Shown here in pieces: positions 25,997 to 50,505 of a DNA stretch of 64,000 bases. Numbering within the stretch: position 1 is the first letter of the stretch; every line of letters starts with the position of its first letter. The translations under genes were made by a program, and so were the position numbers. Below the pieces are notes generated by a model. The model made no database searches, was not told where the DNA came from, and was given only the letters and a program-made list of their open reading frames with translations. Origin of the DNA: Burkholderia sp. USMB20 (GTDB lineage Bacteria; Pseudomonadota; Gammaproteobacteria; Burkholderiales; Burkholderiaceae); NCBI RefSeq assembly GCF_000949135.2, contig NZ_JTAN02000003.1, forward strand, positions 124,001-188,000, in the 5' to 3' direction.

Positions 25997-26020
25997 TGCA
26001 TTCGCAAGGAAGGACCAAGC

Positions 26021-28260: not shown

Positions 28261-28306
28261 CACCGGCGGAACGCGCGAGCGTGCGCTCGCGCACTGCCCG
28301 GCACCG

Positions 28307-28329: not shown

Positions 28330-28380
28330 ATTCGAGCGCAACGCCGGGTGCCGCACCGAGCGTTGCCATCCCGCGCGGGC

Positions 28381-30735: not shown

Positions 30736-30852
30736 CCTGCAACGCACCTTCGCGCGTTCAATCGGATGCCGGCACGTGCATCGAAACGAATCGTCGATGC
30801 GGCCGCGCGTGTCCTGCTCGTGCATTGCCCGCGCAGCATCTGTCGGGCATCG

Positions 30853-30877
30853 CGCCCCGCCGTTTCGGCGGGGCGTT
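30853..30877. terminator. Bidirectional terminator hairpin
   Basis: CGCCCCGCCG pairs perfectly with CGGCGGGGCG around TTT, between the converging transferase and glycosidase-like genes. Confidence 0.75.
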
Positions 30878-30938
30878 GCTTACCTGTTGCCGGGCACTCT
30901 GAGGCTCGCTCCCCGCATTGCAGCACGGCGCAGCAGGA

Positions 30939-31907: not shown

Positions 31908-31949
31908 CGCGGCCTCCCCGGAAGCATTCCTGCGCGACATCGTAGCCGA

Positions 31950-33668: not shown

Positions 33669-33965
33669 CTAGTCGCGTTCGACGTTGCCGCCGTGCTTCT
33701 TGACGGAATTTCTGCTGAACTTGGGACGCCCCGTCTCCTTGTATGCCTTGTCCCAATCCTCATCGGACATGCCGGGTTTCACGTTGACTTGGGCAGAGCC
33801 GTTTGGCAATGGCGGGGGCTTGATCTTGCCGCCGGACGACTGGTTCGTCTGCTGCGCACTCGCATGCTGAACCGCGCTGGTGATGACGAGCGCGGGACTC
33901 AATGCAAGGAGTAGCCCAACGGTGCTCAACCCGATTCGAAAAAATCGATTGCGATGCGAGGGCAT
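33669..33965 (-). CDS. Small secreted protein of the polysaccharide locus
   Basis: 98 residues. A signal peptide or N-terminal membrane helix (about 10-37, GLSTVGLLLALSPALVITSA, then HASA|QQ) is followed by a 60-residue hydrophilic segment rich in Lys, Pro and Gly (GKIKPPPLPNGSAQ, ending KKHGGNVERD). No family recognised. First gene of a leftward operon. AAAGG nine bases before ATG 33965 favours this start over the ATG at 33974. It could be an accessory chaperone or anchoring peptide of the deacetylase, but that is speculation. Confidence 0.65.
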   Translation of the reverse strand: MPSHRNRFFRIGLSTVGLLLALSPALVITSAVQHASAQQTNQSSGGKIKPPPLPNGSAQVNVKPGMSDEDWDKAYKETGRPKFSRNSVKKHGGNVERD

Positions 33966-34109
33966 GATTTTCATCCTTTGATATGCAAATTGGATTCTCG
34001 TTAACGAAACGAGCACGCCCCATTGCCGATTTAGAATCGGGTGTTATGTCGTTATTTTTTTCGTTTAATACCCCCGGTTAATGAAACGAAACCGGACAGT
34101 TGGCTTTCA

Positions 34110-34125
34110 AGCTAGTTCTGTACCA
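34110..34125 (-). promoter_or_regulatory. Sigma-54 promoter of the leftward deacetylase operon
   Basis: On the minus strand: TGGTACAGAACTAGCT. Against TGGCAC-R-N4-TTGCW it has the invariant GG and GC at exact spacing, with one mismatch in each element. Transcription would start near 34098, giving a leader of about 130 bases. Confidence 0.6.
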
Positions 34126-34198
34126 TCCGCCGCAAATGGACACCGGGCCGGGACGCCAAAATCGGCGCGTCGAGACGGTCCGAAATTGTCTCGATAAA

Positions 34199-34216
34199 CG
34201 TTTCACGCATGCAACG
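34199..34216. promoter_or_regulatory. Enhancer-type palindrome for the leftward operon
   Basis: CGTTTCACGCATGCAACG has seven of nine symmetric base pairs. It shares the pattern YGWTTCA-N4-TGMAWCR with the sites upstream of nfrB and glmS, and its centre is 82.5 bp from the -24 element. Confidence 0.55.
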
Positions 34217-34489
34217 CGACTGGTTTCGGAAATTGGGTCCGACGAACGCGTAACGTCTGTTTGAGCGATTCAGGTGAAACCGGTTGCGTGCTTCGTTCCG
34301 CCCACGGCAACGCGGCAACCGAGCCGGCGGCGCATCCATCCAACGGCGACCGGAGCACCGGATTTTCGGTTTCATCGTCGATCCGTCCGTCCAGGATCGA
34401 CGGAATCGCGTGACGCGCTCCGGTCGCGATGATCGGGGACGCGGGTAGAGAACCTGCCAAACGTCTCATATTCGGAACGCCGGTCCGCA

Positions 34490-34507
34490 TGTTTCAGCAC
34501 TGAAACA
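34490..34507. promoter_or_regulatory. Enhancer-type palindrome for nfrB
   Basis: TGTTTCAGCACTGAAACA has eight of nine symmetric pairs (only the central C-A pair fails); the symmetry extends one more base on each side. Its centre lies 83.5 bp upstream of the -24 element, a normal position for a sigma-54 activator site. Confidence 0.68.
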
Positions 34508-34581
34508 TTTGGCTTGGTTTCGATTCGCCGATCGTGCGCGGCACACGTCCGGTACCCGGAAGGCGCAAGAGTGGTGGACGA

Positions 34582-34597
34582 TGGCGCACGACTTGCT
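34582..34597 (+). promoter_or_regulatory. Sigma-54 promoter of nfrBA
   Basis: TGGCGCACGACTTGCT matches TGGCAC-R-N4-TTGCW with a single mismatch and exact GG/GC spacing. Start of transcription expected near 34608, about 325 bases before the nfrB start codon. Confidence 0.78.
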
Positions 34598-34931
34598 TGA
34601 AGCGCTGTGTATTGAAAAGAGACGGTGTATGGGGCGCACTGCGTAGCGCTGGATCGGGGGCCGCTGCAAGCGCCGGCGCACGCAGGGACGAACGCAAGCA
34701 AGCGGAGAAACCGGCTGTCAAAAGTCACCCACTGAACACGTTGCATTTTTGGTGATGTTGCGTGGTCGTATCAATAGCGCTCCGGGCAGCCTCGAGTCTT
34801 TTGAGAACGACGAGAACGGATGTGGCGTTAGCCGCAGGAGTGGACGTGACGGGGTCGACGGGGACGGGGCGGTTTCGTCTTCCGTTCGTACGAAGGAAGA
34901 AATACAGACGGACGAAAATCGCGGAAAGGTA

Positions 34932-36890
34932 ATGGATAATATGATATGGAGTGCGTATTTATATGCACTCAACCTTGTCGCCATTGTGACCGCCCTCGTC
35001 ATCCTGGTCAGCACGCTGGATGACCTGACGCTGGATGGCTGTTACTGGTCATTCGAAATCGGGCGCATCCTGCGTCGTGAGAAATCGCAGACCGTCGACA
35101 TCGGCATGCTGCGCGCGCAGGAAGAGCGCCATCTGGCACTCATGGTGCCGGCATGGAAAGAGTACGACGTGATCGCCAAGATGATCGAAAACACGCTGGC
35201 GACCATCGAGTACGAGCGGTATGTCATCTTCGTCGGCACCTATCACAACGACGCCGAAACCACGGCGGAAGTCGAACGGATGGTTCGCCGGTATCCGGGC
35301 AGGGTGACGCGTGCCACGGTCATGAACGACGGGCCGACCTGCAAGGCGGACTGCCTCAACTGGATTCTCGAAGCGATCCTTCGTTACGAAGCAGTCCATC
35401 ATATTCAGTTCGCGGGCGTCGTCATGCACGACTGCGAAGATGTCATTCATCCGGTCGAACTCAAGTACCTCAACCATGCGGTGGCGGAGAGCGATCTGGT
35501 CCAGCTTCCGGTGCTGTCGTTGCCCCGGAAATGGAACGAGTTCGTCGCCGGCTGCTATCTCGACGATTTCAGCGAAACGCACCAGAAGGACGTGCCGGTG
35601 CGCGCACGCTTGACCGGAGTCGTGCCGGGCGCGGGTGTTGCGTCGTGCTACAGCCGGCGTGCGATCGAAGCCGCGATGAAGGCGCGTGACGGCGGCCCGT
35701 TCAACACGCGTTCGCTGACCGAGGACTATGATTTCAGCTTCCGGCTGAGAGACCTCGGCATGAAGGAAACCTTTGCCCGCACGCCGCTTTCGGACATCGT
35801 GCGCGATGCCGGCGGCAAGCGCGCGAAGGACGGTGCCGCCGGTCGAAACCTGCTGGCCACGCGCGAGTACTTTCCCAAGACATTCCGCACCGCCTACCGG
35901 CAGCGCGCGCGCTGGATTCTAGGCATCGCGTTTCAAGGCTGGGAGCAACTCGGCTGGAAGGGCGACTTCCTCACCCGCTACATGTTCTTCCACGATCGCA
36001 AGGGCATCGTGACGTCGCTGTTTTCGGTGATTGCCTATGGTGTGCTGCTCAACTTCGTGTTGCTTTCCGCGCTTCAGAAAGCCGGTCACGTCATTCCCGC
36101 CAGCGCTCAACTCGTGACGGCCGGTGCCTGGGTCACGCCGCTGCTGTGGGTCAACACCCTCATGCTGTTCGCCCGTGCCGGACAGCGTTTCTACTTCGTC
36201 AGCAAGCTGAACGGCCTGCTCCAGGGGCTGCTCTCGATCCCGAGGATGTTCGTCAACAACCTGATCAATTTCTGCGCGGTGAGTCGCGCGTGGCGCATCT
36301 ATGTCGGCCACCTGGTGAGCGGCAGGCCGATCGCGTGGGACAAGACCAGTCACACATACCTGTCCAACGAGGAACTCGGGAAGGCGCGCCGCAAGATCGG
36401 CGAGATCCTGGTCGGCTGGGGCGTGGTTTCCCTGGCGCAACTGGAGGACGGCCTCGAGCGGCAACTGACATGCGGCAAGCGGCTGGGTGAACTGTTGCTC
36501 GAAGGCAGTGCGTTGTCCACCGAATCGCTGGCGGATGCGATCGCCGAGCAGGCGGATCTGCCGCGGGTGAGCCTGGGCAACGTCGCGGTGGGCCACTTCG
36601 CGGACTCGCTGGCATTCGAGCTGCAGTACGCGTATCGTGCCGTTCCGTTTTCGACCGCCGCCGACGGGACGCTGAACGTCGCGGTCGGGCGGCCGCTCAC
36701 GCAGGACGAACAGGACGTCGTGCGGCGCGGCGCCCGAACGAACGTCGCCTATTTCATTGCCTGCGATGCGGAGATCGCCGCCGAACTCGGCCGGCACTCG
36801 CGCTTCGTCGAGATCGCGCGGCTGCGCGTTGGCGACGACGCGACGCAGCAGGCAGTGCCGGTGAAAAAGCCGTCGGGAGAACAGGCATGA
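34932..36890 (+). CDS. nfrB: NfrB-like GT2 polysaccharide synthase with MshEN domain
   Basis: 652 residues. A membrane helix at about 6-29 is followed by a family-2 glycosyltransferase domain with the four synthase motifs: MVPAWKEYD (71-79), HDCED (166-170), TED (263-265) and QRARW (324-328), i.e. a processive inverting synthase. Further membrane segments lie at about 360-440. The C-terminus holds two MshEN c-di-GMP repeats: KIGEILVGWGVVSLAQLEDG (488-507, running to Q511) and RLGELLLEGSALSTESLADA (517-536, to Q540). E. coli NfrB has this same domain order and acts with NfrA in a c-di-GMP-dependent N-acetyl-hexosamine polymer pathway. GGAAAGG before ATG 34932 sets the start; an in-frame ATG at 34749 would add a hydrophilic tail. 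The stop overlaps nfrA. Confidence 0.85.
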   Translation: MDNMIWSAYLYALNLVAIVTALVILVSTLDDLTLDGCYWSFEIGRILRREKSQTVDIGMLRAQEERHLALMVPAWKEYDVIAKMIENTLATIEYERYVIFVGTYHNDAETTAEVERMVRRYPGRVTRATVMNDGPTCKADCLNWILEAILRYEAVHHIQFAGVVMHDCEDVIHPVELKYLNHAVAESDLVQLPVLSLPRKWNEFVAGCYLDDFSETHQKDVPVRARLTGVVPGAGVASCYSRRAIEAAMKARDGGPFNTRSLTEDYDFSFRLRDLGMKETFARTPLSDIVRDAGGKRAKDGAAGRNLLATREYFPKTFRTAYRQRARWILGIAFQGWEQLGWKGDFLTRYMFFHDRKGIVTSLFSVIAYGVLLNFVLLSALQKAGHVIPASAQLVTAGAWVTPLLWVNTLMLFARAGQRFYFVSKLNGLLQGLLSIPRMFVNNLINFCAVSRAWRIYVGHLVSGRPIAWDKTSHTYLSNEELGKARRKIGEILVGWGVVSLAQLEDGLERQLTCGKRLGELLLEGSALSTESLADAIAEQADLPRVSLGNVAVGHFADSLAFELQYAYRAVPFSTAADGTLNVAVGRPLTQDEQDVVRRGARTNVAYFIACDAEIAAELGRHSRFVEIARLRVGDDATQQAVPVKKPSGEQA

Positions 36891-38581
36891 AGCGCTCGAC
36901 ACGTCGGATCGCGGCCGGCCTCAAGCGCTGCGCACGGTCGAGCGCGCTGGCCGTTGCCATGTCGCTCGCCTGGCAGGCGCCGGCATCCGCCGCCCCGCAG
37001 CTCAACCCCAAAGCCTATCGGCTCGCCGATGGCGCCTACAAGGCGATCAACGCAGGCGACCTGCCTCGCGCGGAAGCGTATGCGTTGCGCGCCCTCCGGA
37101 TTCAGCCGGGAAGCGAACAACTCGGGCTGTTGCTCGTGGATGTGTACCGGCGCGAAGGGAAAGTCGACGAAGCGGACGCGCTGCTGGAATCGCTGAGCGT
37201 TCGTTTTCCGAAAAGCGCGGCGGTACTGGCGCAGCATGGCTATCTGGCGCAGCGGCAGATGCGCTACGACGTCGCGTGCAGCAATTTCGCGGCGGCCGTC
37301 GCGACTGGAAACTGGAGCAAGGAGCAGCAGCGCAACTTGCGCCTCGCGTGGTCGGACAGTGCGCTCGCGGCAAAGCGTCCGCACGAGGCCGGCGTCGCGC
37401 TGGCGCCGCTGGCCGATGAAAAATCGGCCGTGATTCAGTTGCGTATCGCGCAGATGAGCTTGCAGGCGGGCGACCACGACAGCGCGCTGCGCGTGGCCGA
37501 GCTGGCGGCCGGCAACGCGTCGACCGATGCCGAGCGGAACATGGCCGCGTCGATCGCGGCACAGGCGCGGCAAGCCGACCAGCCGCCCGAGGTGCCGGTG
37601 GACGATACCGCGCAACGGACCTTGCAGCACGCCTATGATCTCCTGCGCGAACACAAGGATCGCGAGGCGCTCGACGCATTTCAGGAAGGTTTCGCCGGTG
37701 GCGCCGGCAACGCGATGAACTATGCGGACGCCGGCTATGCGGCCAAGCGGATCGGCTTGAACGAGCAGTCCGTCCAGATGTTCGAGCAGAGTCTCGACGC
37801 CGACGAAAACGAACATGCGTTCGACGCGCAGCGCAAGTTCGGCTATCGGCGCGAGGTAGAACAACTCGAGCGCACCTGGGGTTTCGTGCTGAGCGCGCCA
37901 TACCAGTCGGCCGCATTCGGCCCGCAAGGCACGATCAGCGTGCTCCAGCCGGGTATCGAGGCGTATTGGCAGCCGCCGAAGATCGGCTATCGGAACGGCC
38001 GCATTCTCCAGTTCTTCGTGCGTGGATACGGCACGGCCTACGACGGCACGGGCAACGTGACCGGCATGCCGACCGTGCAGGGGTCGGTGGGCGTGCGCTA
38101 CAAGCCGATACCCGATCAGAACGTGGTGGTGACCGCCGAGCGGTTGTTCCATATCGGCAGCCTGTCGATGACGGACTGGCTGATGCGCCTGGGTTACTCG
38201 TCGGAGGCGGGCACCGACCTGCGGGTCACCGAACCGAGCTGGCGCAGCTGGCAGGCCTATGTAGAAGGTGCGTACTTCATCAATGCCGGGCGTTACATCA
38301 TCTATTCGGAGTTGCGTTACGGGCACACGTGGCGCTTGCCGATGATCAGCGACCGGCTGACCGTCTACCCGCACGCTGCGGTGGCGGGCGATCACGACAA
38401 CCGTCAGCCTGACAAGACGGCAATCGGTGCGGGGCCAGGGGTCCAGTTCAGGTACTGGTTTCGCGAAGGCAGGTATACCGCGCCGGCGAGCTATCTCGAC
38501 GTGACGGTGCAATACCGGTTCGGGTTGACGTCAGCGGCACGCGCACGTGGTCTCGTGGTACGCGCGACATTGTGGTTCTGA
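36887..38581 (+). CDS. nfrA: NfrA-like TPR / outer-membrane polysaccharide exporter
   Basis: 564 residues. Signal peptide with cleavage after about residue 35 (APASA|AP). Residues about 40-300 are helical TPR-like repeats (AYALRALRIQPGSEQLGLLL; ALDAFQEGFAGGAGNAMNYA). The C-terminal 240 residues begin FGYRREVEQLERTWGFVL, the NfrA_C pattern, and then alternate aromatic strands up to a terminal Phe (VVRATLWF), as in an outer-membrane beta-barrel. E. coli NfrA (about 990 residues) is the N4 phage receptor; this form is shorter, mainly in the TPR part. ATG overlaps the nfrB stop by 4 bases, so synthase and exporter are coupled. Confidence 0.82.
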   Translation: MKRSTRRIAAGLKRCARSSALAVAMSLAWQAPASAAPQLNPKAYRLADGAYKAINAGDLPRAEAYALRALRIQPGSEQLGLLLVDVYRREGKVDEADALLESLSVRFPKSAAVLAQHGYLAQRQMRYDVACSNFAAAVATGNWSKEQQRNLRLAWSDSALAAKRPHEAGVALAPLADEKSAVIQLRIAQMSLQAGDHDSALRVAELAAGNASTDAERNMAASIAAQARQADQPPEVPVDDTAQRTLQHAYDLLREHKDREALDAFQEGFAGGAGNAMNYADAGYAAKRIGLNEQSVQMFEQSLDADENEHAFDAQRKFGYRREVEQLERTWGFVLSAPYQSAAFGPQGTISVLQPGIEAYWQPPKIGYRNGRILQFFVRGYGTAYDGTGNVTGMPTVQGSVGVRYKPIPDQNVVVTAERLFHIGSLSMTDWLMRLGYSSEAGTDLRVTEPSWRSWQAYVEGAYFINAGRYIIYSELRYGHTWRLPMISDRLTVYPHAAVAGDHDNRQPDKTAIGAGPGVQFRYWFREGRYTAPASYLDVTVQYRFGLTSAARARGLVVRATLWF

Positions 38582-38622
38582 GCAACTGCGCTGACGATCA
38601 GGCGACTCGATGGTGAGGCCGA

Positions 38623-39591
38623 TCAGCTGGGCGACTTGAGCGTGATGATCGTTTGACGCAGCAGCTGGAAGTAGGAGCTCGTCGAATACGGGACCATCTG
38701 CTCGGCGTAGTTCCACCAGAAGAATCCGCCGATGAAACGCGGATCGGTCATGCTGTTGACCATCGGGTAGTAGGTCTTGATCAGGTTCTGCTGCACCGAC
38801 GCCGGCGCCGCGATATCCGACGTGCCGATTTCGCCGAAGCCGACCTTCGCGTTCGGGAAGATGCTTTCCAGCGCCGCGAAGTCGTTTTTCCACGACGGAT
38901 TCAGCCCCGGGCAATCCTGGTACGGGTAGTAGCTGAACAGCGCGTAGTCGGCCTGCTGGCGAACCGTCGCCGGCAGGAACGCGGTCGGCCACGTCTTCCA
39001 GTAATCCTGCGGCTTCGCCCAGCAGTTGGTGCCCTTGCTGTCGTCGTTGTAGTACAGCGTGATCGCGGTCTTGCCGCCGTTCGATTTGACGATCGTGTTG
39101 GCCGCGGCGACCATCTGGCCGATCTGCTGCTCTTCCGAATTGACCACGGTGTTCGTGCCGCTCGGATCGTTGCGCAGCCATTCGCCGTTGATTTCGTTGG
39201 CGATTTCCCACACGTCGACCGTGTTCTTCAGCTGCGACACCAGTTCCTGCGTGCGCGCCTTGTACGTCGTGATATCCGTCGGGAAATAGTACGAATCGTA
39301 GACTTCGCCCATCACGTATGCGACCGAGTGCAGGCGCAGCAGCGGTGCGTAGTAGTCGGCGGCCGACGTGCCCGGATCGAACACGACGCGCACCGTCGGT
39401 CGGTACGGCAGGTTCTGCAGCGACGCGATGATCGCATCCAGTTTCGTCAGGTCATCGAGCGTGACGCCGTAGACCGGATTCTTCAGCGGTTCGACCTGGG
39501 CGTTGGCGGTTTGGGACAAGGGCATCAGCCCGGCATAAGCAACGCATGCGGCAATGGCCGTGCGTGAGATGGTTTTCGTCAGTTTAATCAA
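38623..39591 (-). CDS. Secreted glycoside hydrolase (clan GH-A type)
   Basis: 322 residues. Signal peptide with cleavage after about residue 32 (TANA|QV). The TIM-barrel body has the two clan GH-A glutamates: WEIANEINGEW (acid/base Glu after Asn, near residue 150) and KVGFGEIGTSD (nucleophile Glu on strand 7, near 251). GGFFWWNYAEQM near 290 is the aromatic strand-8 motif. It is secreted and most likely cuts the nfrBA polymer or a related beta-glycan. It converges on nfrA with only 41 bp between, and its promoter lies beside the hexanucleotide array. Confidence 0.78.
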   Translation of the reverse strand: MIKLTKTISRTAIAACVAYAGLMPLSQTANAQVEPLKNPVYGVTLDDLTKLDAIIASLQNLPYRPTVRVVFDPGTSAADYYAPLLRLHSVAYVMGEVYDSYYFPTDITTYKARTQELVSQLKNTVDVWEIANEINGEWLRNDPSGTNTVVNSEEQQIGQMVAAANTIVKSNGGKTAITLYYNDDSKGTNCWAKPQDYWKTWPTAFLPATVRQQADYALFSYYPYQDCPGLNPSWKNDFAALESIFPNAKVGFGEIGTSDIAAPASVQQNLIKTYYPMVNSMTDPRFIGGFFWWNYAEQMVPYSTSSYFQLLRQTIITLKSPS

Positions 39592-39834
39592 AACTTCGGT
39601 TCCGTCCTAAGGTAAGAAGAAGCGCGATTTTAGACGAAAATAAAAGGTAATTATCGGATGATATGCGCAATAAAGGGGCGGATGTCGCGGAATGGAAATT
39701 GCTGCGCGGCTGGCTGGTGATCAAAAACGCAGCATCCCGAAACGTTTGCAAGCGGGCATCGGGACGGCCGGCGGAACGGGGAATCTCCTGACGACCGGGC
39801 GTGGTGGCGCATTCGGGTATACGCGCTGCGATTC

Positions 39835-40150
39835 CGCTTCGGCTTCGCGGTCGGCTTCGACATCGGCTTCGGCTTCGGCATCGACTTCGACTTCGACTTC
39901 GGCTCGGCGCGGCTTCGGCTTCGACATCGGCATCGGCATCGGCATCGGCATCGGCATCGGCATCGGCATCGACATCGACATCGACATCGACATCGACATC
40001 GACATCGACATCGACATCGACATCGACATCGACATCGACATCGACATCGACATCGACATCGACATCGACTTCGACCTCGACTTCGACCTCGACCTCGACC
40101 TCGACCTCGACCTCGACCTCGACATCGGCATCGGCATCGGCATCGGCATC
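39835..40150. repeat. Hexanucleotide microsatellite GRCNTC
   Basis: From 39911 to 40150 there are 40 uninterrupted 6-bp units of form GRCNTC. In order: GGCTTC x2, GACATC, GGCATC x7, GACATC x16, GACTTC/GACCTC/GACTTC, GACCTC x6, GACATC, GGCATC x4. To the left a degenerate set of 11 units (39835-39900) is split off by 10 unrelated bases. Units with the same letter cluster in blocks, as produced by slippage. Hexamers keep all six frames open, giving apparent proteins such as (Asp-Ile)n; these are not taken as genes. It lies in the divergent space between a glycosidase gene and the cyclic-nucleotide/FliG-like gene. Confidence 0.95.
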
Positions 40151-40429
40151 GTCAACACTGCCGTGCTCACGATCGCCCGCATCGTTTGCGATGGCCATGC
40201 GGTGATCCGCTCGCGCCCGGTGGCGCACGAACGCGCACGCATCGAAGAATCTGCTGACGATGCCGGCAATCCGCAAACGTTTCACGTTGATTTTCGTCGG
40301 TAACGCGCAGGATTTCGCTAAAGGATGCCGGCGCCGATGACGTTAAACGGGCACGGGGATGACTGCCGATCGCATGCATGTGACATGCGACGCCCAGTCC
40401 GCAACAACCAGCGCTGCAGGGGAACCAAC

Positions 40430-41665
40430 ATGAATCGTCAGCAATCGTGGACGCGTACGGCCGCGCCCGGCGAGATCATCTACTCGGAGGGCTTCGCCGG
40501 CGAGCCCGTCATCTTTCTGATCGCCGACGGCAAGGTCGAGCTGTCGACGCGCTGCGACGACAAGCGCGTCGTCGTCGCGACGCTCGGGCGCGGCGAGTTC
40601 TTCGGCGAATCGGCGCTGCTCGCCGCCGAGCCGCGCGCACATACCGCGAAGGCGCTGTCGTTCTGCCAGCTCACGGTCGTGCCGGCCGCGACGATCGACG
40701 AGGAAATCGAGCACGTGTCGGCGCTGCTTCGCCACATCGTGCGCACCATGATCCGGCGCGTGAAGCGCAAGGACGACCAGCTCGCGACCTATACGCATGC
40801 CGACTTCATGCCGGGCGTGCTGTCGTATGCGCACGTGCTGTCGCTGATGGCGGGCGCCGACGCGCGCGGCTCCGACGACGCGTGGTCGCGGCGGCCGATG
40901 CAGGCACATGCGGAGGTGTCGGTGCCGCTCGCGGAGGTGATCCGCCGGTGCCGCGCGATTGCCGGCCATTCGCGCCCGCACGTGCTTGCGATGCTGCGCC
41001 GCATGGAGAAGCTCAATCTCGTCACGATCGAAGCCGCGCAGGGCGACCATGCCGGCGGCGCGGCCGATTACCCCGCGTCGTCGGATGCGCGCCAGACCGT
41101 CACGTTCGATGCGGCGCGCGTGGTCGATCGCGCGCAGCAGGTTGCCGATCACGATCTCGACGTGTCGATCAACAGCGAGCTGGAGCTGATCGAGCTCGCC
41201 GATCTCGAAGCGCTGATCGGCGTCGACCGGAAGCTGCTGCTCAACAAGCTGTCGCACGGCGAGATCGCCGACGAGGTGTTCGCGTTCCGCAAGTCGAAGG
41301 TGCTCGGTTACGTCGGGCAGAAAGGCGTCGCGTATTTCTCGCGGCGCAGCCCGCGCGCCGGCGGCGACGTGCGCGCGCTCGAGGATCTCGTGGGGGTCGA
41401 CCAGCGCACGCTGTTCGACGTGATCAGCGCATTCGATACGTACGATCTCGCGAAGCTGATCGCGAGCCTCGACGATCGCGCGGTGGCCGACAAGCTGTTC
41501 TCGGTGATGACGGAAGCGCGGCGCAACGAGGTGTCGTGGGTGATGCGCCGCGAGCTCAAGCTCGACCCGATCGAGATCGAGGAGATCGAGCGACGCGTGC
41601 TCGATGCCGTGCGCGCGGCCAAGGCGCCGGCGGCGTCCGTGCCGCCGGCTTCATCCGCCGCGTGA
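40430..41665 (+). CDS. Cyclic-nucleotide-binding protein with FliG-C-like repeats
   Basis: 411 residues. Domain 1 (about 5-115) is a cNMP-binding fold with a phosphate cassette FFGESALLAAEPRAHTAKAL (Glu60, Arg69). A helix leads to a winged-helix-like segment (about 163-202, VSVPLAEVIRRCRAIAGHSR, then LAMLRRMEKLNLVTIE). The last 155 residues hold two related units, ADLEALIGVDRKLL (257-270) and RALEDLVGVDQRTLFDV (315-331). The second continues into a helix array that aligns by eye with the FliG C-terminal domain (E. coli FENLVDVDDRSIQRLL). The FliG Asp-Asp-Arg is Asp-Gln-Arg here. MotA-like and MotB-like genes follow at once. Start ATG 40430 has CAGGGGAA upstream. A motor-coupling or stator-control role is inferred. 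Confidence 0.7.
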   Translation: MNRQQSWTRTAAPGEIIYSEGFAGEPVIFLIADGKVELSTRCDDKRVVVATLGRGEFFGESALLAAEPRAHTAKALSFCQLTVVPAATIDEEIEHVSALLRHIVRTMIRRVKRKDDQLATYTHADFMPGVLSYAHVLSLMAGADARGSDDAWSRRPMQAHAEVSVPLAEVIRRCRAIAGHSRPHVLAMLRRMEKLNLVTIEAAQGDHAGGAADYPASSDARQTVTFDAARVVDRAQQVADHDLDVSINSELELIELADLEALIGVDRKLLLNKLSHGEIADEVFAFRKSKVLGYVGQKGVAYFSRRSPRAGGDVRALEDLVGVDQRTLFDVISAFDTYDLAKLIASLDDRAVADKLFSVMTEARRNEVSWVMRRELKLDPIEIEEIERRVLDAVRAAKAPAASVPPASSAA

Positions 41666-41687
41666 CGCCCACCCGACGGAGACATCC

Positions 41688-42452
41688 ATGGACCTGTTGA
41701 CCCTGGCCGGCGTGCTGCTCGGCGGCGTGGCGATCGTGTTCGGCTTCGCGCTGGAAGGCGGACATTTTTCGATGTTGTTCCAGTTCGAAGCGCTCGTGAT
41801 CGTGCTCGGCGGCACGCTCGGCGCGGTGATGATCCAGAATACGTGGGCGCGCTTCTTCGATGCGGTGAAGCAGCTGCGGCTCGCGTTCGTGCGCGCGCAG
41901 GAAGTCGATCGCAAGCACCTGACCGACCTGCTGGAGTGGGGCGATCGCGCGAAGCTCGACGGGCTGCTCGCCTTCGAATCGATGGACGTGAGCGGCATCC
42001 ATCCGTTCGCGCGGCGCGGGCTCGAACTGCTCGCGAACGGCGTGTCGACCGCGGTGCTCGAGGACGCGCTGCAGCGCGAGCTCGACGCCTACGAGCGCAG
42101 CCGCCTCGCGGCCGCGCGCGTCTGGCACCAGGCCGGCGGCTATGCGCCGACGTTCGGCATTCTCGGCTCGGTGCTCGGGCTGGTGCAGGTGACGAGCCAT
42201 ATTCTCGAACCGGCGCAGCTCGGGCCGGGCATCGCAGTCGCGTTCATCGCGACGCTCTACGGCCTCGCATTCGCGAACCTCGTGTTCCTGCCGCTCTACG
42301 GCAAGCTGCGCGCGCAGATCGACAGCGAGCTGCGGTTCCGCAAGCTGTATCTCGACGGATTGCTCGCGATCTCGCGCAAGGAGTCGCCTCACACGATCGA
42401 GACGCGGCTGACCGGCGACGTGCGCGGCCGCGCGGCGGAGTCGCTCGCATGA
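41688..42452 (+). CDS. MotA-like proton-channel protein (orphan stator)
   Basis: 254 residues, the length of flagellar MotA/MotC. Membrane helices at about 3-22, 33-50, 145-168 and 183-206; the cytoplasmic loop between helices 2 and 3 (60-140) is charged. GGYAPTFGILGSVLGLVQV carries the conserved proline and glycine residues of helix 3, and FIATLYGLAFANLVFLPL is helix 4. It lacks the long tail of ZorA-type proteins. It should form the outer ring of a stator with the MotB-like protein next door. The gene starts 22 bp after the FliG-like gene with a CGGAG site. No flagellar genes are nearby. Confidence 0.85.
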   Translation: MDLLTLAGVLLGGVAIVFGFALEGGHFSMLFQFEALVIVLGGTLGAVMIQNTWARFFDAVKQLRLAFVRAQEVDRKHLTDLLEWGDRAKLDGLLAFESMDVSGIHPFARRGLELLANGVSTAVLEDALQRELDAYERSRLAAARVWHQAGGYAPTFGILGSVLGLVQVTSHILEPAQLGPGIAVAFIATLYGLAFANLVFLPLYGKLRAQIDSELRFRKLYLDGLLAISRKESPHTIETRLTGDVRGRAAESLA

Positions 42453-42470
42453 CGCACCGGGAGCTTCGAC

Positions 42471-43148
42471 ATGACGGCTCGAACTGACGGCGCGCGTGTG
42501 GGTTCGGCCGCGGCCGGGCGCGACGACGATGAGGCCGAAGGCACGCAGTCCGGGCGCTGGCTGATTTCCTACGCGGATCTCGTCACGACGCTGATGGTGC
42601 TGTTTCTCGCGCTGTACGTGCTGCAGCTCGCGAAATACAACGCGCTCGATGCGCGTTATCAGACGCTAGCTCGGCATGACGGCGGGACGGCAAGCGCGCC
42701 CGACGCAGCGACCGGGCGCATGCCCGCGTGGCTCGCATCGCTCGACGCGCTGAAGACGGCCGGCCGCATCTCGCTCGTGCGCGCGCCGCACGGCATCGAG
42801 ATCGGCATCGACGCGAAGATCCTGTTCAACGTCGGCGATGCGCGCTTGCTGCCGGACGCGACACCGGTGCTGAGCCAGATCGCGCAGGCGCTGAGCGCGC
42901 ATGCGAGCGGCGACATCCTCGTCGAAGGGCATACCGACAGCGTGCCGATCGCGAACGCGAAATACGAGTCGAACTGGGAGCTGTCGTCCGCGCGGGCGGG
43001 CAGCGTCGTGCGCTATCTGGCCGATCGCGGCGTCGCGCCGCACCGGCTCGCCGCGATCGGGCGGGCCGATACGCAGCCGCTCGTCGCGGGCGACGATGCG
43101 GCCGCGCGGGCGCGCAACAGGCGGGTGACGATCTTCGTCGCGTATTGA
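42471..43148 (+). CDS. MotB-like protein with OmpA peptidoglycan-binding domain
   Basis: 225 residues. A short cytoplasmic N-tail, then WLISYADLVTTLMVLFLALY (30-49) with the Asp that carries protons in MotB. The C-terminal OmpA-like domain (about 105-222) has GHTDSVPIANAKYESNWELS and the ARNRRVTI end, the peptidoglycan-binding residues. The linker contains no clear plug helix. It completes a stator pair with the gene 18 bp upstream; because both channel Asp and cell-wall anchor are intact, ion-driven torque generation is possible. What the motor turns or drives here is unknown. Confidence 0.87.
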   Translation: MTARTDGARVGSAAAGRDDDEAEGTQSGRWLISYADLVTTLMVLFLALYVLQLAKYNALDARYQTLARHDGGTASAPDAATGRMPAWLASLDALKTAGRISLVRAPHGIEIGIDAKILFNVGDARLLPDATPVLSQIAQALSAHASGDILVEGHTDSVPIANAKYESNWELSSARAGSVVRYLADRGVAPHRLAAIGRADTQPLVAGDDAAARARNRRVTIFVAY

Positions 43149-43297
43149 GCGCGCGAACCTCGACGGGCACGCGACGGCCGCCCGTCGACGACATATCGGA
43201 TCTCGGATGACGAACATGTGAACCCGGCGATGCGATTCCGCGCGTGCCTGCCGATAACCCAGGCTGGCTCAGACCGAGCGGTTATCGAGGGTTCCCC

Positions 43298-45160
43298 ATG
43301 CATTTCTGGCGCAAGCTGTCCATTCAGAACAAGCTGATTCTCAGCATGACGAGTTGCCTGCTCGTGTTCGTCGCGATTTCGAGCGGGTTGAGCGTCCGTC
43401 TGATCGGCAACGCCGTGCGCGATCGCGTCGTCCGCGAGGAGCTGCCGACGGCCGTGAGCGGCATCCGCGCCGACGTGCAGCGGCAGATGGCCGGGCCGAT
43501 TGCCGCGTCGCGCCTCCTTGCGCGCGATGCGTTCCTGCTGCAATTGGAGGCCGACGGCGAGCCCGATGCCGGCACGCGCAGCTGGATTCAGCTCGCGAAG
43601 AACGTGAAGGACGAGCAGAAGGCGGCGTCCGTGCAGTGGGTGTCGGTGAAGAGCGGCAACTACTACAACGAAGCCGGCCTGCAGCGGAAGGTCACCGACC
43701 AGGATCGATGGCTGACGGATTTCCTCGCGTCGGGCAAGGCCTACGAGGTGAACATGGACCGCGAGGTCACGGCCGGCGGCTACATGATGTTCATCAACAG
43801 CCGGGTGGAGCTGGACGGCACGCCGATCGGTGCGACCGGCATGAGCCTGTCCGTCGACGCGCTCGCGAGGGGGATCGCCGCATACCGGATCGGCAATACC
43901 GGGTTTGCGTACCTCGTACGGCCGGACGGCGCGATCATGATGCATCGCGATGCGTCGCTGATCGACGGCAAGCACTTCCTGAAGGACGAACCGGGCCTGC
44001 CTGGCGACGCATCGTCGACGCTGCTGGCCGGCAAGCCGTATGCGACGCTGAGCTACGACGGCGACGGCGGTGCGCGCTTCATCGCGACATCGTTCGTTCC
44101 GGAGCTGAATGCGTACGTGGTCGTCGAAGTGCCGCAGGCCGAACTGCTCGGGCCGGTTACGCGTGCGATTCGCAGCGCGGCGCTCGTCGCCGCGATCGCG
44201 GGCCTCGGTGTCGCGCTGGTCGTGATCTGGCTGGTCGGGCGCGCGATCGCCGCGCCGATCCGCCGCGCGGCGACGCTGCTGTCGGACATCGCGAGCGGCC
44301 AGGGCGACCTGACGCGCCGGATGACGGTCGAAAGCCAGGACGAGATCGGCCAGCTGTCGGACGCGTTCAACCGTTTCGTATCGTCGTTGTCGACGCTCGT
44401 CCACCGGATCCGCGCGGCGTCCGCGTCGATTGCGACCGGGTCCGCGCAGATCGCGTCGGGCAATGCCGACCTCAGCGAACGCACCGAAGGGCAGTCGGGC
44501 AACCTCGAGCGGACGGCTTCGTCGATGGAGGAGATCACGGCGGTCGTGCGCAACAACACCGAAACCGCGACGACGGCCGCGCAGCTGATCACCGGCGCCG
44601 CCGACACGGCGACGCGCGGCGGGCAGGTCGTCGGCGAAGTCGTGACGACGATGGAGCAGATCAGCGATGCGTCGCGGCGGATCGCCGAGATCATCGTGAT
44701 GATCGACGGCATCTCGTTCCAGACCAACATCCTCGCGCTGAATGCGGCGGTCGAGGCCGCCCGCGCCGGCGAGCAGGGGCGCGGGTTCGCGGTCGTCGCG
44801 GCGGAAGTGCGGAACCTCGCGCAGCGCAGCGCGCAGGCGGCGAAGGAGATCAAGGCGCTGATCGAGCACAGTGCGGGGACGGTGAGCACCGGGTCGCGGC
44901 TCGTCGGCGAGGCCGGCAAGGTGATGCGCGATGTCGTGTCGCAGGTGCAGGGCGTCAGCGCGATGATGAGCGAGATCGCCGAGGCGAGCCTGGAGCAGAG
45001 CGCGGGCATCGACCAGATCGGCGACGCGGTGCAGTCGCTCGATCAGATGACACAGCAGAACGCGGCGCTGGTCGAGGAGAGCGCGGCGGCCGCGGAGAGC
45101 CTGAAGCAGCAGGCGGCGGATCTGACGCGCCTGGTATCGGCGTTCAAGGTAGATGAATAG
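43298..45160 (+). CDS. Methyl-accepting chemotaxis protein with dCache sensor
   Basis: 620 residues. Membrane helix about 13-35, periplasmic dCache domain about 40-280 ([20 protein letters not shown], then [19 protein letters not shown]), second helix near 288-312, HAMP (313-365), and the signalling coiled coil with the conserved tip [20 protein letters not shown] (near 487-506) followed by [21 protein letters not shown]. It ends KVDE, without the NWETF tether for CheR/CheB. Downstream of the MotAB-like genes by 150 bp, same strand. It may signal to the general chemotaxis pathway or to a local output; no cheA/cheW is present here. Confidence 0.9.
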
Positions 45161-45262
45161 CGTCCGCGCGACGTTAGAATGAACGCGTTTCTGGGGGACG
45201 GCTGCCGTGGGGATACGGTAGCCGTTTTCGCTGTCGGCGCGGGAATCGGTGACGTCATAAAA

Positions 45263-46051
45263 ATGAAGCGCATTTCAAGACTGAAGGTCGGGGTGGGGGC
45301 GGTGGTGGTCGCGGCGGTGTTCGCCGCGGTCGGGGCGAAGGTGATCGCATCGCCGGCGGATGCGTATCTTGCCTATCGGAAGCAGGCCGCGGCGGCGGTG
45401 GCGGCGGCCCGGATGGAGGATCGGGCGGGCCTCGACCGGCAGTACACGGCCGACGTGAACGCGCGGCTCGCCAAACTAATTGGCACGGTCAGGGCGCGCG
45501 GGTTCGTCGCGCAGGCCGAGGGCACGGTGCAGAGCGTCGGCCCCGTCGACGGGATGCCGCCGGGGCCGGACGGGTTGTCCTTCAAGTCGGACGACGGCAA
45601 GACGCATCTCGTCGTGACGACCGTTCCGCTGCTGAAAGCCTGGGCGAGCACGGCGGACGCCGGCATCAAGCCGACCGACGACGTCGCCGCGATGTTCGGC
45701 AACGAAACGCTTTACACGCACGTATTCAGCGACGACGCGGCGGCGTTTCGCTTCGCCGAGTTGCCCGTCAAGCGGCAGCCGGCCGACGGCGTGGTGAAGG
45801 CGTGGCTGCTGGGCGAAAGCCAGGACGGCGTGCCGGACGGGCCGAACACGCTGGCCGTGTCGGTCCGGCAGGGCCAACGCGTTTATATCCTGTGGCGGGG
45901 CGTGACGCTGCGCCCGATCGCGGCGTGCGGCGCGGCGCGCGTACCCGAGAACGCGCGGCAGGCGTGTTTCGCCAGGCAGGTGGGGACCCAGCGGATTTAT
46001 CCGCGGCTGGTCGCGCAGGCGCAATCGATGGCCGATGCCGTGGTCCGATAG
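45263..46051 (+). CDS. Secreted or membrane-anchored protein of unknown function
   Basis: 262 residues from ATG 45263. An N-terminal hydrophobic segment (about 8-30, VGVGAVVVAAVFAAVGAKVI) acts as signal or anchor. The rest is soluble with an Ala-rich helix (KQAAAAVAAARMEDRAGLDR) and strand-rich parts, e.g. FKSDDGKTHLVVTTVPLLKA, and two Cys near the end (IAACGAA; RQACFARQ) that could form a disulfide. I do not recognise the family. It follows the chemoreceptor by 100 bp and may be expressed with it or alone. Confidence 0.65.
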   Translation: MKRISRLKVGVGAVVVAAVFAAVGAKVIASPADAYLAYRKQAAAAVAAARMEDRAGLDRQYTADVNARLAKLIGTVRARGFVAQAEGTVQSVGPVDGMPPGPDGLSFKSDDGKTHLVVTTVPLLKAWASTADAGIKPTDDVAAMFGNETLYTHVFSDDAAAFRFAELPVKRQPADGVVKAWLLGESQDGVPDGPNTLAVSVRQGQRVYILWRGVTLRPIAACGAARVPENARQACFARQVGTQRIYPRLVAQAQSMADAVVR

Positions 46052-46140
46052 CGGGATAGCGGGCGGCAGACTCGGGTCGCAGCCGTCGCTCGCACGGCGC
46101 GATTCGACGGCGCTGGACGGAGGTTCGCGTCCGACGAATG

Positions 46141-46171
46141 ACGGTCGGCGACGTCGCGCGTCGCCGACCGT
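46141..46171. terminator. Bidirectional hairpin between converging genes
   Basis: ACGGTCGGCGA (46141-46151) pairs perfectly with TCGCCGACCGT (46161-46171). It lies between the secreted protein gene and wecB. No T-run. Confidence 0.6.
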
Positions 46172-46195
46172 CGGCATGCCGTCCGGCGAGCGACT

Positions 46196-47413
46196 TCAAC
46201 GCGAGCGCAACGCCTGCAACCCCAGGGTGAGCGGGTTGAACGGCATCTCCGCGGCGCCCATCGAAAAGCTCGTCGCCTTTGCGGTCGCCCCGGGCGCGTG
46301 CATCAGCGCATGAACGATCCGCTCGCTCGCATGGCCGTCACCGTACGGATTGCTCGCGCGCGCCATTTCCTCATACGCGCTGTCGCTGTCGAATAGCCGC
46401 GACGCCTCCCAGACGATCCGCTCCTGGTCCGTGCCGACGAGCCGCGCGGTGCCGGCGTGGATCGCTTCGGGACGCTCGGTCGTCTCGCGCGTGACGAGCA
46501 CCGGCTTGCCGAGTGCCGGCCCTTCCTCCTGGATGCCGCCCGAATCGGTGATGATGAAGTGCGAGCGTGACATCAGGAATACGAACGAAAGATATTCCTG
46601 GGGTTCGATCAGGTAGATGTTCGGTACGCTGCCGAGCAGCGCGCGCGCCGGCTCGCGCACGTTCGGATTCAAGTGCAGCGGATAGACGAACTGTGCATCG
46701 GGATAGCGCTTCGCGAGCGTGCAGAGCGCCTCGCAGAAATGCCGGAACGGTTCGCCGAAGCTCTCGCGGCGATGGCCGGTGATCAGCACAACGCGGCGCG
46801 ACGCTTCGAGAAACGGAAAGTGTGCGGCGACCTTGTCGTTAAGCGCGCTATCGTGGTCGAGCATGCGCTTGACGTCGTGCAGCGCATCGATCACGGTGTT
46901 GCCCGTCATCACGACCGCACCCACCGGCACGCCTTCGCTGAACAGGTTGTCGCGCGCCTGGCCCGTCGGCGCGAAGTGCCATGACGACACCGCATCGGTC
47001 ACGCGGCGATTCAATTCCTCCGGCCACGGCGACCAGATGTCGCCGCTGCGCAGGCCCGCTTCCACGTGCCCGACCGGCAGATAGCGGTAGAACGCCGCGA
47101 TACTGACGGCCAGCGTCGTCGTCGTGTCGCCGTGTACCAGCACGACGTCCGGACGCAAGTCGTCGAAGACGGTCCCGATCGCCTGAAGAATGCCGGTCGT
47201 CACGTCGGTCAGCGTCTGGCTCTGACGCATCAGATTGAGATCGTAGTCGGGCTTGATGTCGAACAACGTGAGGACCTGATCCAGCATTTCCCGATGCTGG
47301 GCGGTCACGCATACGCGGGCATCGACATCCTTGCGCGCCTTCAGCGCGCGCACGAGCGGCGCCATCTTGATGGCTTCCGGTCGAGTCCCGAACACAAGCA
47401 AGATCTTTTTCAT
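46196..47413 (-). CDS. wecB: UDP-N-acetylglucosamine 2-epimerase (non-hydrolysing)
   Basis: 405 residues. It starts [20 protein letters not shown], the family signature. Active-site residues are visible: Asp in [12 protein letters not shown], Glu in [13 protein letters not shown] and in WPEELNRR, and His in TGHRRESFG. The C-terminal [19 protein letters not shown] binds UDP. It converts UDP-GlcNAc to UDP-ManNAc. In E. coli the NfrAB polymer depends on WecB, and here the gene lies 9 kb from nfrBA with a glmS between it and nothing else metabolic, so it is probably the precursor enzyme for that polymer. Its promoter is in the 1.3-kb gap toward glmS. Confidence 0.92.
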
Positions 47414-47721
47414 CGTTGTCCTCGTTGAGCATCTTCGCGCCGGAAGATCCGGCGCCTGGCGCCAGGCATGGTTGCAGGCCACCCGTCCCGTCTCCGCATG
47501 TATCGACGCCAGTCGCGCGACATGCAGCGGTATTGCGGGGCGAGCGCGCCGTTTTTGTCCGCGTGGTCTGCGCCACGCAATCGTCGAACTACGACCGTCC
47601 CGTTGCACCTCGTCAATCACGTCATGAGCATTTCTCGCTGTGTCGATCGCCATGTCTGTCGGTCAGGCCGCGTACGTTTCCACGTCGCTGCGCGCCCGCA
47701 CCCGTTCCTCCTTCCGATAGA

Positions 47722-47737
47722 GCAATATTCAAACCAG
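47722..47737 (-). promoter_or_regulatory. Weak sigma-54 candidate for wecB
   Basis: On the minus strand: TGGTTTGAATATTGCT. The GG and GC are at correct spacing and the -12 element is perfect, but the -24 element departs in three positions. A related half-palindrome, CGTTTCACAATTGCTACG, lies at 47789-47806, about 60 bp upstream, i.e. not at the spacing of the other three promoters. Confidence 0.35.
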
Positions 47738-48280
47738 TGGCCCTGTGGCCGGCCCCGCTTCGCGCCGCACCGGTGGAATGCCAGGGAACGTTTCACAATT
47801 GCTACGAGCGCGATTGCGGCGCCCTGCCGCGATGGGGGTAAAAATCCGACCGTTCGCGCGATCGAGCCGGTCACGTCATGCGACGGATGGCGACTTGCGT
47901 CACGCGCTGGCTGCCGATCGAACCGCATGCGCCGTGTCACGCGCCTCGGAGCGTTTCGACATGCGAGTTTTGTCCGGGCAACGTGGGGAACGTCGTCGGC
48001 TGCCACGCATTGCCTCCGTGCGAAGGATGGCCCTCACGCATCGCGGCGCGTGCATCGTCCGCACCGGGCGATGCGAAACGTTGCGTATCTGTAACGACCG
48101 TCCGGAGCCGGCCGGCCATATCCGCAAGGCGGTTGGTCGATGTGTGCCGCGCCGCGCACGGGGCGTGGCCGGACAAGAGCCCTGCAACGACAGCCTGCAG
48201 CGGTCGACCAGCAGAAAGGGTGGCGCGCGACGTTTCGGTTCACTGAAGGCGGAAGATCCCGCTAGGGGGGAGGTGAACCC

Positions 48281-48298
48281 TGATTCACCGGTGAATCA
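48281..48298. promoter_or_regulatory. Enhancer-type palindrome for glmS
   Basis: TGATTCACCGGTGAATCA is a perfect 18-bp palindrome that shares TGWTTCA-N4-TGAAWCA with the nfrB site. Its centre is 84.5 bp upstream of the -24 element. Confidence 0.68.
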
Positions 48299-48373
48299 AA
48301 AACACGCGATCCGTGCCGCGAGCCCGTCGATCGGGTACCCGCAGGCCATTGCATCACGGGGCAGGGCGATCCA

Positions 48374-48389
48374 TGGCTCACCGCTTGCT
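48374..48389 (+). promoter_or_regulatory. Sigma-54 promoter of glmS
   Basis: TGGCTCACCGCTTGCT matches TGGCAC-R-N4-TTGCW with one mismatch and exact spacing. Transcription start expected near 48400, about 290 bases before the coding region. Confidence 0.75.
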
Positions 48390-48687: not shown

Positions 48688-50505
48688 ATGTGTGGCATCG
48701 TCGGCGCGGTCGCGCAACGGAACATCGTTCCGGTTCTGATCGAAGGTTTGCGCCGCCTCGAGTATCGTGGCTACGATTCATGCGGCGTGGCGACCGTCGT
48801 CGACGGCCAGGCGCGCCGCGAACGCAGTGTGTCGCGCGTCGCCGATCTCGACGCGCACGTGCGCAGCGCCGGGCTGTCCGGCAGCACGGGCATCGCGCAC
48901 ACCCGGTGGGCAACGCACGGCGCGCCCGCCACCTGCAACGCGCATCCGATCTTCTCGCGCGACGAAATCGCGCTCGTGCACAACGGCATCATCGAGAATC
49001 ACGAGACGTTGCGCAGGCAACTGTCCGACGAGCATTACCAGTTCGACGGCCAGACCGACACCGAGGTCGTCGCGCACCTGATCCACAGCAAGTATCACGG
49101 CGACCTGCTCGCCGCCGTGCGCGATGCGACGTCGCAGCTGCACGGCGCATACGCGATCGCGGTGTTCAGCAAGCACGAGCCGCAGCGGCTGATCGGCGCG
49201 CGGGTCGGCTCGCCGCTCGTCGTCGGCCTGAAGGACGACGAATGTTTCCTCGCGTCCGACGCGCTCGCGCTCGCCGGCATCACCGACCGCTTCATCTTTC
49301 TCGAGGAAGGCGACATCGTCGAGTTGACGCCGGGCGGCGTGCGCATTCTCGAACGCGGCGGCACGCCGGTCGATCGTCCGATCCAGACCGTCTCGTCGAC
49401 GCAAGGCGCGGTCGAGCTCGGGCCGTACCGGCATTTCATGCAGAAGGAGATCTTCGAGCAGCCACGGGCCGTGGCCGCGACCATCCCCGATGCGGGGTTG
49501 TTCGATCCGGCGGCGTTCGGCCCGGATGCCGCGCGCGCGTTCGAGCAGATCGACAACGTGCTGATCCTCGCGTGCGGCACGAGTCACTATTCCGGCCTGA
49601 CCGCGCGCCGCTGGCTCGAGACGATCGCGCGCCTGCCGGCGCAGGTCGAGATCGCGAGCGAATACCGTTACAGCGACGCGCTCGCGTTGCCGAATACGCT
49701 CGTGGTCAGCGTGTCGCAATCCGGCGAGACCGCCGACACGCTCGCCGCGCTCAAGTATGCGCAGGCGCTCGGGCATATCGATACGCTCGCGATCTGCAAC
49801 GTGCCCACCAGCGCGATGATGCGGCAGACGAGCCTGCGGTTCCTGACGCGCGCCGGCCCGGAAATCGGCGTCGCGTCGACCAAGGCGTTTACCACCCAGC
49901 TCGTCGCGCTGTTCATTCTCGCGGTGACGCTCGGCCGGTTGCGCGGCTACGTCGACGATGCGCAGCTCGCGCGCTATGCGACGCAGCTGCGGCGGCTGCC
50001 GGGCGCGCTCGACGACGTGCTCGCGCTGGAGCCGCAGATCGAGCGCTGGGCCGCGGAATTCTCGCGGCACGAGAATGCGCTGTTTCTCGGGCGCGGGCTG
50101 CATTACCCGATCGCGCTCGAAGGGGCGCTGAAGCTGAAGGAGATTTCGTATATCCACGCGGAAGCGTATCCGGCCGGCGAGCTGAAGCACGGCCCGCTCG
50201 CGCTGGTGACGCACGCGATGCCGGTCGCGACGATCGCGCCGAACGACGCGCTGCTCGAGAAGCTCAAGTCGAACATGCAGGAAGTGCGGGCGCGGGGCGG
50301 TCAGTTGTACGTGTTCGCCGATGCCGATACGCGGATCGACGACAGCGAAGGCGTGTCGGTGATGAGGATGCCGGATTACTACGGGCTGCTGTCGCCGATC
50401 CTGCACGTCGTGCCGCTGCAACTGCTCGCGTATCACGCCGCGTGCCTGCGCGGCGCGGATATCGACAAGCCGAGGAACCTGGCGAAATCGGTGACGGTCG
50501 AGTGA
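48688..50505 (+). CDS. glmS: Glutamine-fructose-6-phosphate aminotransferase (isomerising)
   Basis: 605 residues, close to E. coli GlmS (609). The N-terminal glutaminase begins [12 protein letters not shown], with the nucleophile Cys exposed after Met removal, and has [11 protein letters not shown] and [12 protein letters not shown]. Two SIS domains follow (about 285-420 and 455-595; [36 protein letters not shown]). The last residues [13 protein letters not shown] are the conserved C-tail. It makes glucosamine-6-phosphate, first step to UDP-GlcNAc. The sigma-54 promoter and the location beside wecB suggest it is a specialised copy serving the polymer rather than the housekeeping one. GGGGAAGGAG precedes the ATG. 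Confidence 0.94.

Follow-up and report, generated by a model that had tools for sequence, protein, structure and literature searches.

The DNA considered here is a 64-kb stretch of Burkholderia sp. USMB20 (contig NZ_JTAN02000003.1, positions 124,001 to 188,000), called the window below and numbered from its first letter over its whole length of 64,000 nucleotides; judged by its nfrB relatives, it is Burkholderia DNA. It carries the glycosyltransferase gene nfrB (34749..36890, plus strand, with possible alternative in-frame ATG starts at 34629 and 34755) and three sigma-54 type -24/-12 promoters, situated before nfrB, before a divergent leftward operon and before glmS (48688..50505, plus strand; glutamine amidotransferase and SIS domains), each of which has a palindromic, VpsR-type box upstream at nearly the same distance. 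At nfrB, the box TGTTTCAGCACTGAAACA (34490..34507, plus strand) is centred 83.5 bp from the -24 T of the promoter TGGCGCACGACTTGCT (34582..34597, plus strand). On the minus strand, the box CGTTGCATGCGTGAAACG (34199..34216) lies 82.5 bp from the -24 T of the leftward promoter TGGTACAGAACTAGCT (34110..34125), and before glmS the box TGATTCACCGGTGAATCA (48281..48298, plus strand) lies 84.5 bp from that of TGGCTCACCGCTTGCT (48374..48389, plus strand). All six elements had been picked out in a preliminary description of this DNA; each was found where that description had placed it, and re-measurement of the three distances returned identical values. The leftward promoter had been assigned there to a deacetylase operon: the promoter is present, but the first gene behind it encodes a small predicted secreted protein of 101 aa (33669..33974, minus strand; signal peptide judged by eye), and the DUF2334 gene described as the deacetylase, which we take to have a deacetylase-like fold, is at 31950..33656 on the same strand.

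The three promoters carry the GG-N10-GC expected of sigma-54 promoters at -24/-12, and the boxes matched the core TTTCA-N4-TGA(A/G)A at 10/10 (nfrB), 9/10 (leftward) and 8/10 (glmS) bases. In the 64 kb, the palindrome YGWTTCA-N4-TGMAWCR occurred at these three places only (five strand matches, two of the places matching on both strands), as against a mean of 0.04 matches and a maximum of 2 in 100 dinucleotide shuffles of the window, and a box paired with TGG-N10-GC at 81-86 bp was observed three times versus not once in 400 first-order Markov sequences. Because the palindrome pattern had been derived from the window's own sites, the real test was conservation, the check in related genomes for which the preliminary description had called, and there the pairs proved to be kept in both Burkholderia and Ralstonia.

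Of the comparison genomes, G001 came nearest (24% of sampled words), and whatever is said about the genome outside the window derives from relatives. Because the loci and genomes overlap in part (G001 and locus L004 are one strain), not every count of conserved pairs is independent of the others: the nfrB pair was present in 14/14 Burkholderia loci with upstream DNA, at a spacing of 81.5-84.5 bp (L033 included), the pair of the deacetylase operon in 12 of 14 Burkholderia loci at 82.5-83.5 bp, and the glmS pair in two of the three other Burkholderia genomes with linked glmS (G005 and G031, both at 84.5 bp, one arm of the G031 box being degenerate). When 14 nfrB upstream sequences, the window's among them, were aligned, invariant columns made up 11/14 of the box arms and 12/16 of the promoter, versus 12/74 of the spacer and 4/60 each of the flanking upstream and downstream DNA; thus box and promoter were conserved and the DNA between them was not. 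Ralstonia-type nfrB genes, whose products were 53-57% identical to the window NfrB in the best segment, presented GCGTTCA-N4-TGCAACA at 83.5-84.5 bp from TGGTAYGGTCCTCGCG (TGGTATGGTCCTCGCG or TGGTACGGTCCTCGCG) in all ten loci, nine of which come from Ralstonia or near kin and one from a Burkholderiaceae metagenome-assembled genome. At these loci the spacing is retained despite a changed promoter sequence and spacer. When 32 nfr loci (L015-L047 minus L033; 628 kb) were scanned less strictly, ten pairs with a box of 9-10/10 at 40-130 bp emerged, six of them at 81-86 bp. No pair was found in the nfr loci L034, L036 and L037, nor in L035, L038, L040, L041 and L046, and none in L012 and L045 (the latter the same strain as L033), which have little or no DNA before nfrB; a weak pair inside nfrB of L043 was dismissed as chance-like.

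The pairing was also evident on a genome-wide scale. In G001, the palindrome pattern had 19 matches at 12 places, versus 0 for the reversed pattern; asymmetric matches in this genome (L051, L052, L053 and L059) lack an in-phase promoter at 83 bp and were set aside as chance-like. A search for TTTCA-N4-TGAAWCR, 60-90 bases and TGG-N10-GCT (allowing spacings of 69.5-99.5 bp) identified 68 box-promoter pairs in 30 of 31 Burkholderia genomes, as opposed to none with the reversed control and two, in two genomes, with the off-by-one control (N11 in the -24/-12 element), both of which start from opposite-strand readings of boxes at VpsR genes. The earlier proposal was to fall if the motif pair occurred at random throughout the genome, and these counts show that it does not; taken together, the shuffles, the Markov null and the reversed and off-by-one controls rule out a chance origin of the pairs. 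Twenty-one of the 68 pairs formed a class of their own at 94.5-95.5 bp (the prp class), and the other 47 were all at 81.5-84.5 bp (1, 30, 12 and 4 pairs at 81.5, 82.5, 83.5 and 84.5 bp, respectively). Of these 47, 28 adjoined a gene with a VpsR domain and 12 belonged to the nfrB class, where nfrB was confirmed as the neighbour of the site in 10 genomes and the sequence alone served to assign G010 and G022; six fell into neither group, and the last, in G025 (C1, L233), is separated by some 6 kb from a different VpsR-family gene.

No bacterial enhancer-binding protein (bEBP) gene was found in the window by tblastn with three bEBPs (E up to 1e-3), and a single shared activator encoded outside the window, as proposed at the outset, is still the best reading, now with a family that can be named. 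VpsR-domain matches were present in each of the 31 Burkholderia genomes (a single one in G030), and in 28 of them a box, one per genome, was situated 0.36-0.41 kb from a VpsR domain with a -24/-12 element at 82.5-84.5 bp. The equivalent site in G002 was one base off the pattern (CGTTACATATCTGAAACA, 82.5 bp); of the remaining two genomes, G029 (94% complete) had a prp-class match as its sole match and G030 had none. The box-linked VpsR gene adjoined thyA, with folA nearby, in the genomes checked (G001, G002, G008 and G033), and a box and promoter at 83.5-84.5 bp also stood beside a VpsR-family gene in 7/7 Paraburkholderia, Trinickia and Pararobbsia genomes (G032-G038; L178-L181, L186, L187 and L190). 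Five Trinickia nfr loci (L017-L021) themselves contain a VpsR-family gene, which in the three that were mapped (L017, L019 and L021) lies 6-7 kb before nfrB, ahead of the deacetylase and epimerase genes; near it, box and promoter are spaced 84.5 bp apart in L017 and L018, and a weaker box at 83.5 bp is present in L019. The thyA-linked protein of G001 possesses VpsR, AAA+, lid and HTH_8 domains, and the GAFTGA loop, which Vibrio VpsR is not known to have in standard form, was intact in all four VpsR-family proteins of this genome. Among the alignments listed, that of the G001 protein to the solved VpsR chain stops just before the GAFTGA loop and the other four run through it. In a tree, the thyA-linked VpsR proteins of Burkholderia, Paraburkholderia and Trinickia grouped together (93/84); the root and the placement of Ralstonia were unsure, and therefore the tree was not used to name the paralogue.

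A published promoter provides the closest parallel. Expression of berA in B. cenocepacia is dependent on RpoN and on BerB, as reported with a mutated RpoN site and a BerB footprint, and BerB binds cyclic di-GMP (c-di-GMP) (PMC5552954). We found the berA promoter in 27 of the 31 Burkholderia genomes, and 18 of the 20 upstream regions examined out of those 27 carried GTGTCCGNNAATGAGAC(G/A), i.e., GTGTCC-N6-GAGAC, at 84.5-85.5 bp, with GTGTCC-N6-GCGAC, one base changed, at the same position in the other two (L196 and L203). The berA box and the window box thus share their distance and differ by one base in the right half-site (TGAGAC versus TGAAAC); by its letters the berA box appears to be a sister of the window box and is a candidate for the stretch that BerB protects. 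The analogy with c-di-GMP-responsive, RpoN-dependent control in B. cenocepacia, drawn in the preliminary description, is strengthened by this shared architecture. The printed Vibrio VpsR site TTTCACAATTGAGA (PMC6890996), the BrpR palindrome, in which the fifth C and the twelfth G are important (PMC8268162), and the window box also have in common a C-A-N4-T-G geometry with C and G seven apart. Box geometry thus follows the protein family, and in view of the berA and Vibrio boxes and of its recurrence beside VpsR-domain genes, the window box is most likely a VpsR-family box.

The systems compared differ in instructive ways. BerB/RpoN/berA resembles the window in having a VpsR-type bEBP, a sigma-54 promoter with a box some 84 bp before it and an exopolysaccharide as output, but its box is GTGTCC-N6-GAGAC and its target is berA, leading to the Bep polysaccharide, whereas the window sites are directly at structural genes (PMC5552954, PMC9684580). 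The Vibrio VpsR and BrpR regulons share with the window system the protein family, the box TTTCA-N4-TGANA and an output of matrix polysaccharides and adhesins (PMC6890996, PMC8268162). Vibrio VpsR, however, is described as working without RpoN (PMC5552954), whereas here the boxes are at enhancer distance from -24/-12 elements and the four G001 activators retain GAFTGA. SypG of Vibrio fischeri is likewise a bEBP acting with sigma-54 on a matrix polysaccharide, through the upstream activating sequence TTCTCA-N3-TG, but has an N3 core and is the response regulator of a two-component system (PMC10162802). In Pseudomonas fluorescens, the c-di-GMP-sensing bEBP BrfA activates fapA and the fap operon (PMC13101488). 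The NfrAB exopolysaccharide system of E. coli likewise has an NfrB-type synthase and an NfrA_C protein (PMC8669469, PMC8669472), to which the Burkholderia locus adds the DUF2334 gene, glmS, stator and chemoreceptor genes, and the predicted box/promoter regulation.

We consider it likely that a VpsR-family activator, most likely the orthologue encoded at thyA-folA, drives the three sigma-54 promoters through the conserved palindromes. Binding to the box, dependence on RpoN and control by c-di-GMP are predictions, the last drawn by analogy from the BerB, VpsR and BrfA papers. That the activator is instead another VpsR-family paralogue (of the C1 or C9 type in G001), or several of them redundantly, is unlikely, although several paralogues coexist with nearly identical recognition helices and the two further genes in G001, C1 and C9, have weaker boxes nearby in close box-promoter pairs of their own (CGATACATTCGTGAAACG at 83.5 bp and TGTTTCAGTTTCGCAACG at 82.5 bp, respectively). 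These boxes match the core at 8/10 bases versus 10/10 for that of the thyA-linked gene, and in Ralstonia G039, G040 and G041, which have an nfrB box, the single VpsR-domain protein is nearest, by tblastn score, to the thyA-linked one among the four G001 proteins. The near-identical helices and the weaker boxes at the other G001 paralogues nonetheless count against a firm choice among the paralogues. We regard as improbable that BerB itself activates the window promoters. BerB is the VpsR-like, RpoN-dependent activator that has been demonstrated in Burkholderia (PMC5552954), and the berA box has the same spacing; the conserved berA box, however, is GTGTCC-N6-GAGAC and not GTTTCA-N4-TGAAAC, the window sites do not have the berA-type sequence, and G030, whose sole VpsR-domain protein groups with BerB, has no box-promoter match (its genome is small and its BerB-like frame contains a stop).

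Binding of the boxes by the propionate regulator PrpR has hardly any likelihood in our estimation. It is suggested by a site in G001 (L140:2831-4850) where TTTCA-N4-TGAAA and a -24/-12 element 94.5 bp away lie between prpR, a bEBP gene bearing PrpR_N, and a PEP_mutase/ICL-family gene, a prp-like site being among the matches of 21 genomes (its context was read in G001 only). The prp-type sites, however, are spaced at 94.5-95.5 bp and have TTTT as the N4 in 20/21 cases, the window sites have neither that spacing nor a position beside prpR/prpB, and nfrB-type sites are present in genomes that have no prp-type match (G002, G010 and G031). As a separate observation, the TTTCA-N4-TGAAA shared at L140 raises the prospect that the PrpR and VpsR families of bEBPs overlap in specificity. 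The palindrome might also serve some unrelated repressor or regulator as its operator, with a coincidental distance from the promoter, in line with several G001 boxes that have no good promoter at 83 bp and with binding of the box by the activator being a prediction only. This is very improbable: the spacing is fixed in 47/47 non-prp matches and recurs before dissimilar genes across five genera, which is how an enhancer would behave.

A number of further results weigh against control by one thyA-folA-encoded VpsR-family activator. At the window's own genes, the leftward pair was not found in L005 and L033, nor the glmS pair in G001 or in any of four glmS loci of other genera, and the scan of 11 Paraburkholderia, Trinickia and Pararobbsia nfr loci found no pair at nfrB, despite the box beside VpsR in their genomes. 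Among the G001 boxes, those of L064 and L065 are paired at 83.5 bp with promoters that are weak, the promoters at L066 (95.5 bp) and L068 (73.5 bp) are about one helical turn off, and L067, before an ABC transporter gene, has no promoter near 83 bp. With respect to the activator, whose gene was read in relatives and not in the window's own genome, seven 3-kb Ralstonia VpsR loci (L168-L174) contained no pair, and in G039 a weak box (8/10) lies 0.8-0.9 kb beyond the end of the VpsR gene, 84.5 bp from TGGCATGGATGTCGCT, pointing back at the gene. In the draft Ralstonia genome G045, the nfrB box is present (L042) and a VpsR-domain protein was not found.

Under control by the thyA-folA VpsR-family activator, a VpsR-family protein would bind the box as a dimer, oligomerise upon a c-di-GMP signal, touch the sigma-54 polymerase by DNA looping over about 84 bp and open the promoter. 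The polymer synthase operon (nfrB and nfrA, probably with the downstream stator and chemoreceptor genes) would thereby be switched on, as would the leftward operon of the small secreted protein, the deacetylase and the following genes, with glmS being switched on together with both. The preliminary description had placed synthesis, modification and precursor supply of the polymer under such shared control, and pairs are indeed present at nfrB, the deacetylase operon and glmS; the UDP-GlcNAc 2-epimerase gene (46196..47653, minus strand), however, has no box/promoter pair of its own in the window, and therefore the part of the claim concerning precursor supply depends on glmS alone.

The genes found behind the box elsewhere extend this picture. 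In Paraburkholderia G033 (L236:2663-8702), six genes matching FapA-F in order follow the thyA-linked VpsR-side box (E-values 6e-9 to 4e-108, all under the NCBI equivalog cut-offs), and in Burkholderia G008 (L235:5420-8035) FapB/C-like genes do so; the B. cepacia complex is reported to lack fap genes (PMC3792158). In G001, what follows the thyA-linked VpsR-side promoter is not fap but a gene for a small secreted protein, whose VTLWDE motif recurs in several relatives. Six sites were neither nfrB-, VpsR-linked nor prp-type, and the downstream regions of four were read (L141, L142, L144 and L150; G003 and G019 lie outside this set): about 0.6 kb downstream, L141 and L144 encode near-identical 168-aa proteins of the SCPU pilin type (L141 by Pfam, L144 by eye), and the L142 and L150 sites lead to a 430-aa protein. 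Given the fap-like and SCPU genes behind the box and the parallel of BrfA and fapA, a matrix regulon is the natural reading; with boxes before Fap-like, SCPU-type pilin and small secreted protein genes, the regulon would extend over the biofilm matrix instead of being confined to one locus.

We tentatively extend this, as a possibility somewhat short of probable, to a Burkholderiaceae-wide sigma-54 matrix regulon in which one c-di-GMP-responsive thyA-folA VpsR-family activator, acting from a box at 81.5-84.5 bp, jointly switches on the polysaccharide synthase, the deacetylase, the supply of hexosamine, Fap amyloid and SCPU pili; because the box is so near the Vibrio VpsR box, sigma-54 use is proposed to be ancestral and to have been lost by Vibrio VpsR with the site kept. 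Judged from the open-access literature, in which no Burkholderia study of an NfrB exopolysaccharide was found, the kind of system is already known and the regulon is new. If true, it points to the predicted master switch for an exopolysaccharide and provides a search string with which matrix genes can be located in genomes of Burkholderia, Ralstonia and Paraburkholderia. The route of VpsR to RpoN independence also becomes testable, because the box and the protein family occur both in sigma-54-using lineages and in one that works without it. Two observations lie beside these sites: variable small secreted proteins with the VTLWDE motif (L060:3642-3968, L147, L149, L110 and others) occur where other genomes carry fap, and at L066:3657-4925 a glycine-rich secreted protein of 422 aa stands behind a perfect box with its -24/-12 element at 95.5 bp.

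The remaining genes of the window complete the description of the locus. NfrB has a weak C-terminal MshEN match (22.0 bits, below the cut-off of 23.1), and its gene is followed by an nfrA-like gene (36887..38581, plus strand; NfrA_C 177.2 bits, weak TPR matches) and by co-directional genes at 38653..46051 (plus strand) for two unknowns, a cNMP-binding/FliG_C protein, MotA, MotB, a chemoreceptor and an unknown, which probably share a transcription unit with nfrBA. The motor-like set in this operon (40325-45160; cyclic-nucleotide-binding/FliG_C fusion, MotA, MotB and a dCache chemoreceptor) has a counterpart in L003. Left of the deacetylase gene, nine minus-strand open reading frames at 22240-31940 (eight queries of at least 199 aa) had no Pfam match at E 1e-3 or better, and some of them are conserved in L003. 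The order of the nfr genes differs across genera (L017-L023, L043 and L044), with Trinickia having them co-directional with the deacetylase and epimerase genes and Burkholderia having several units.

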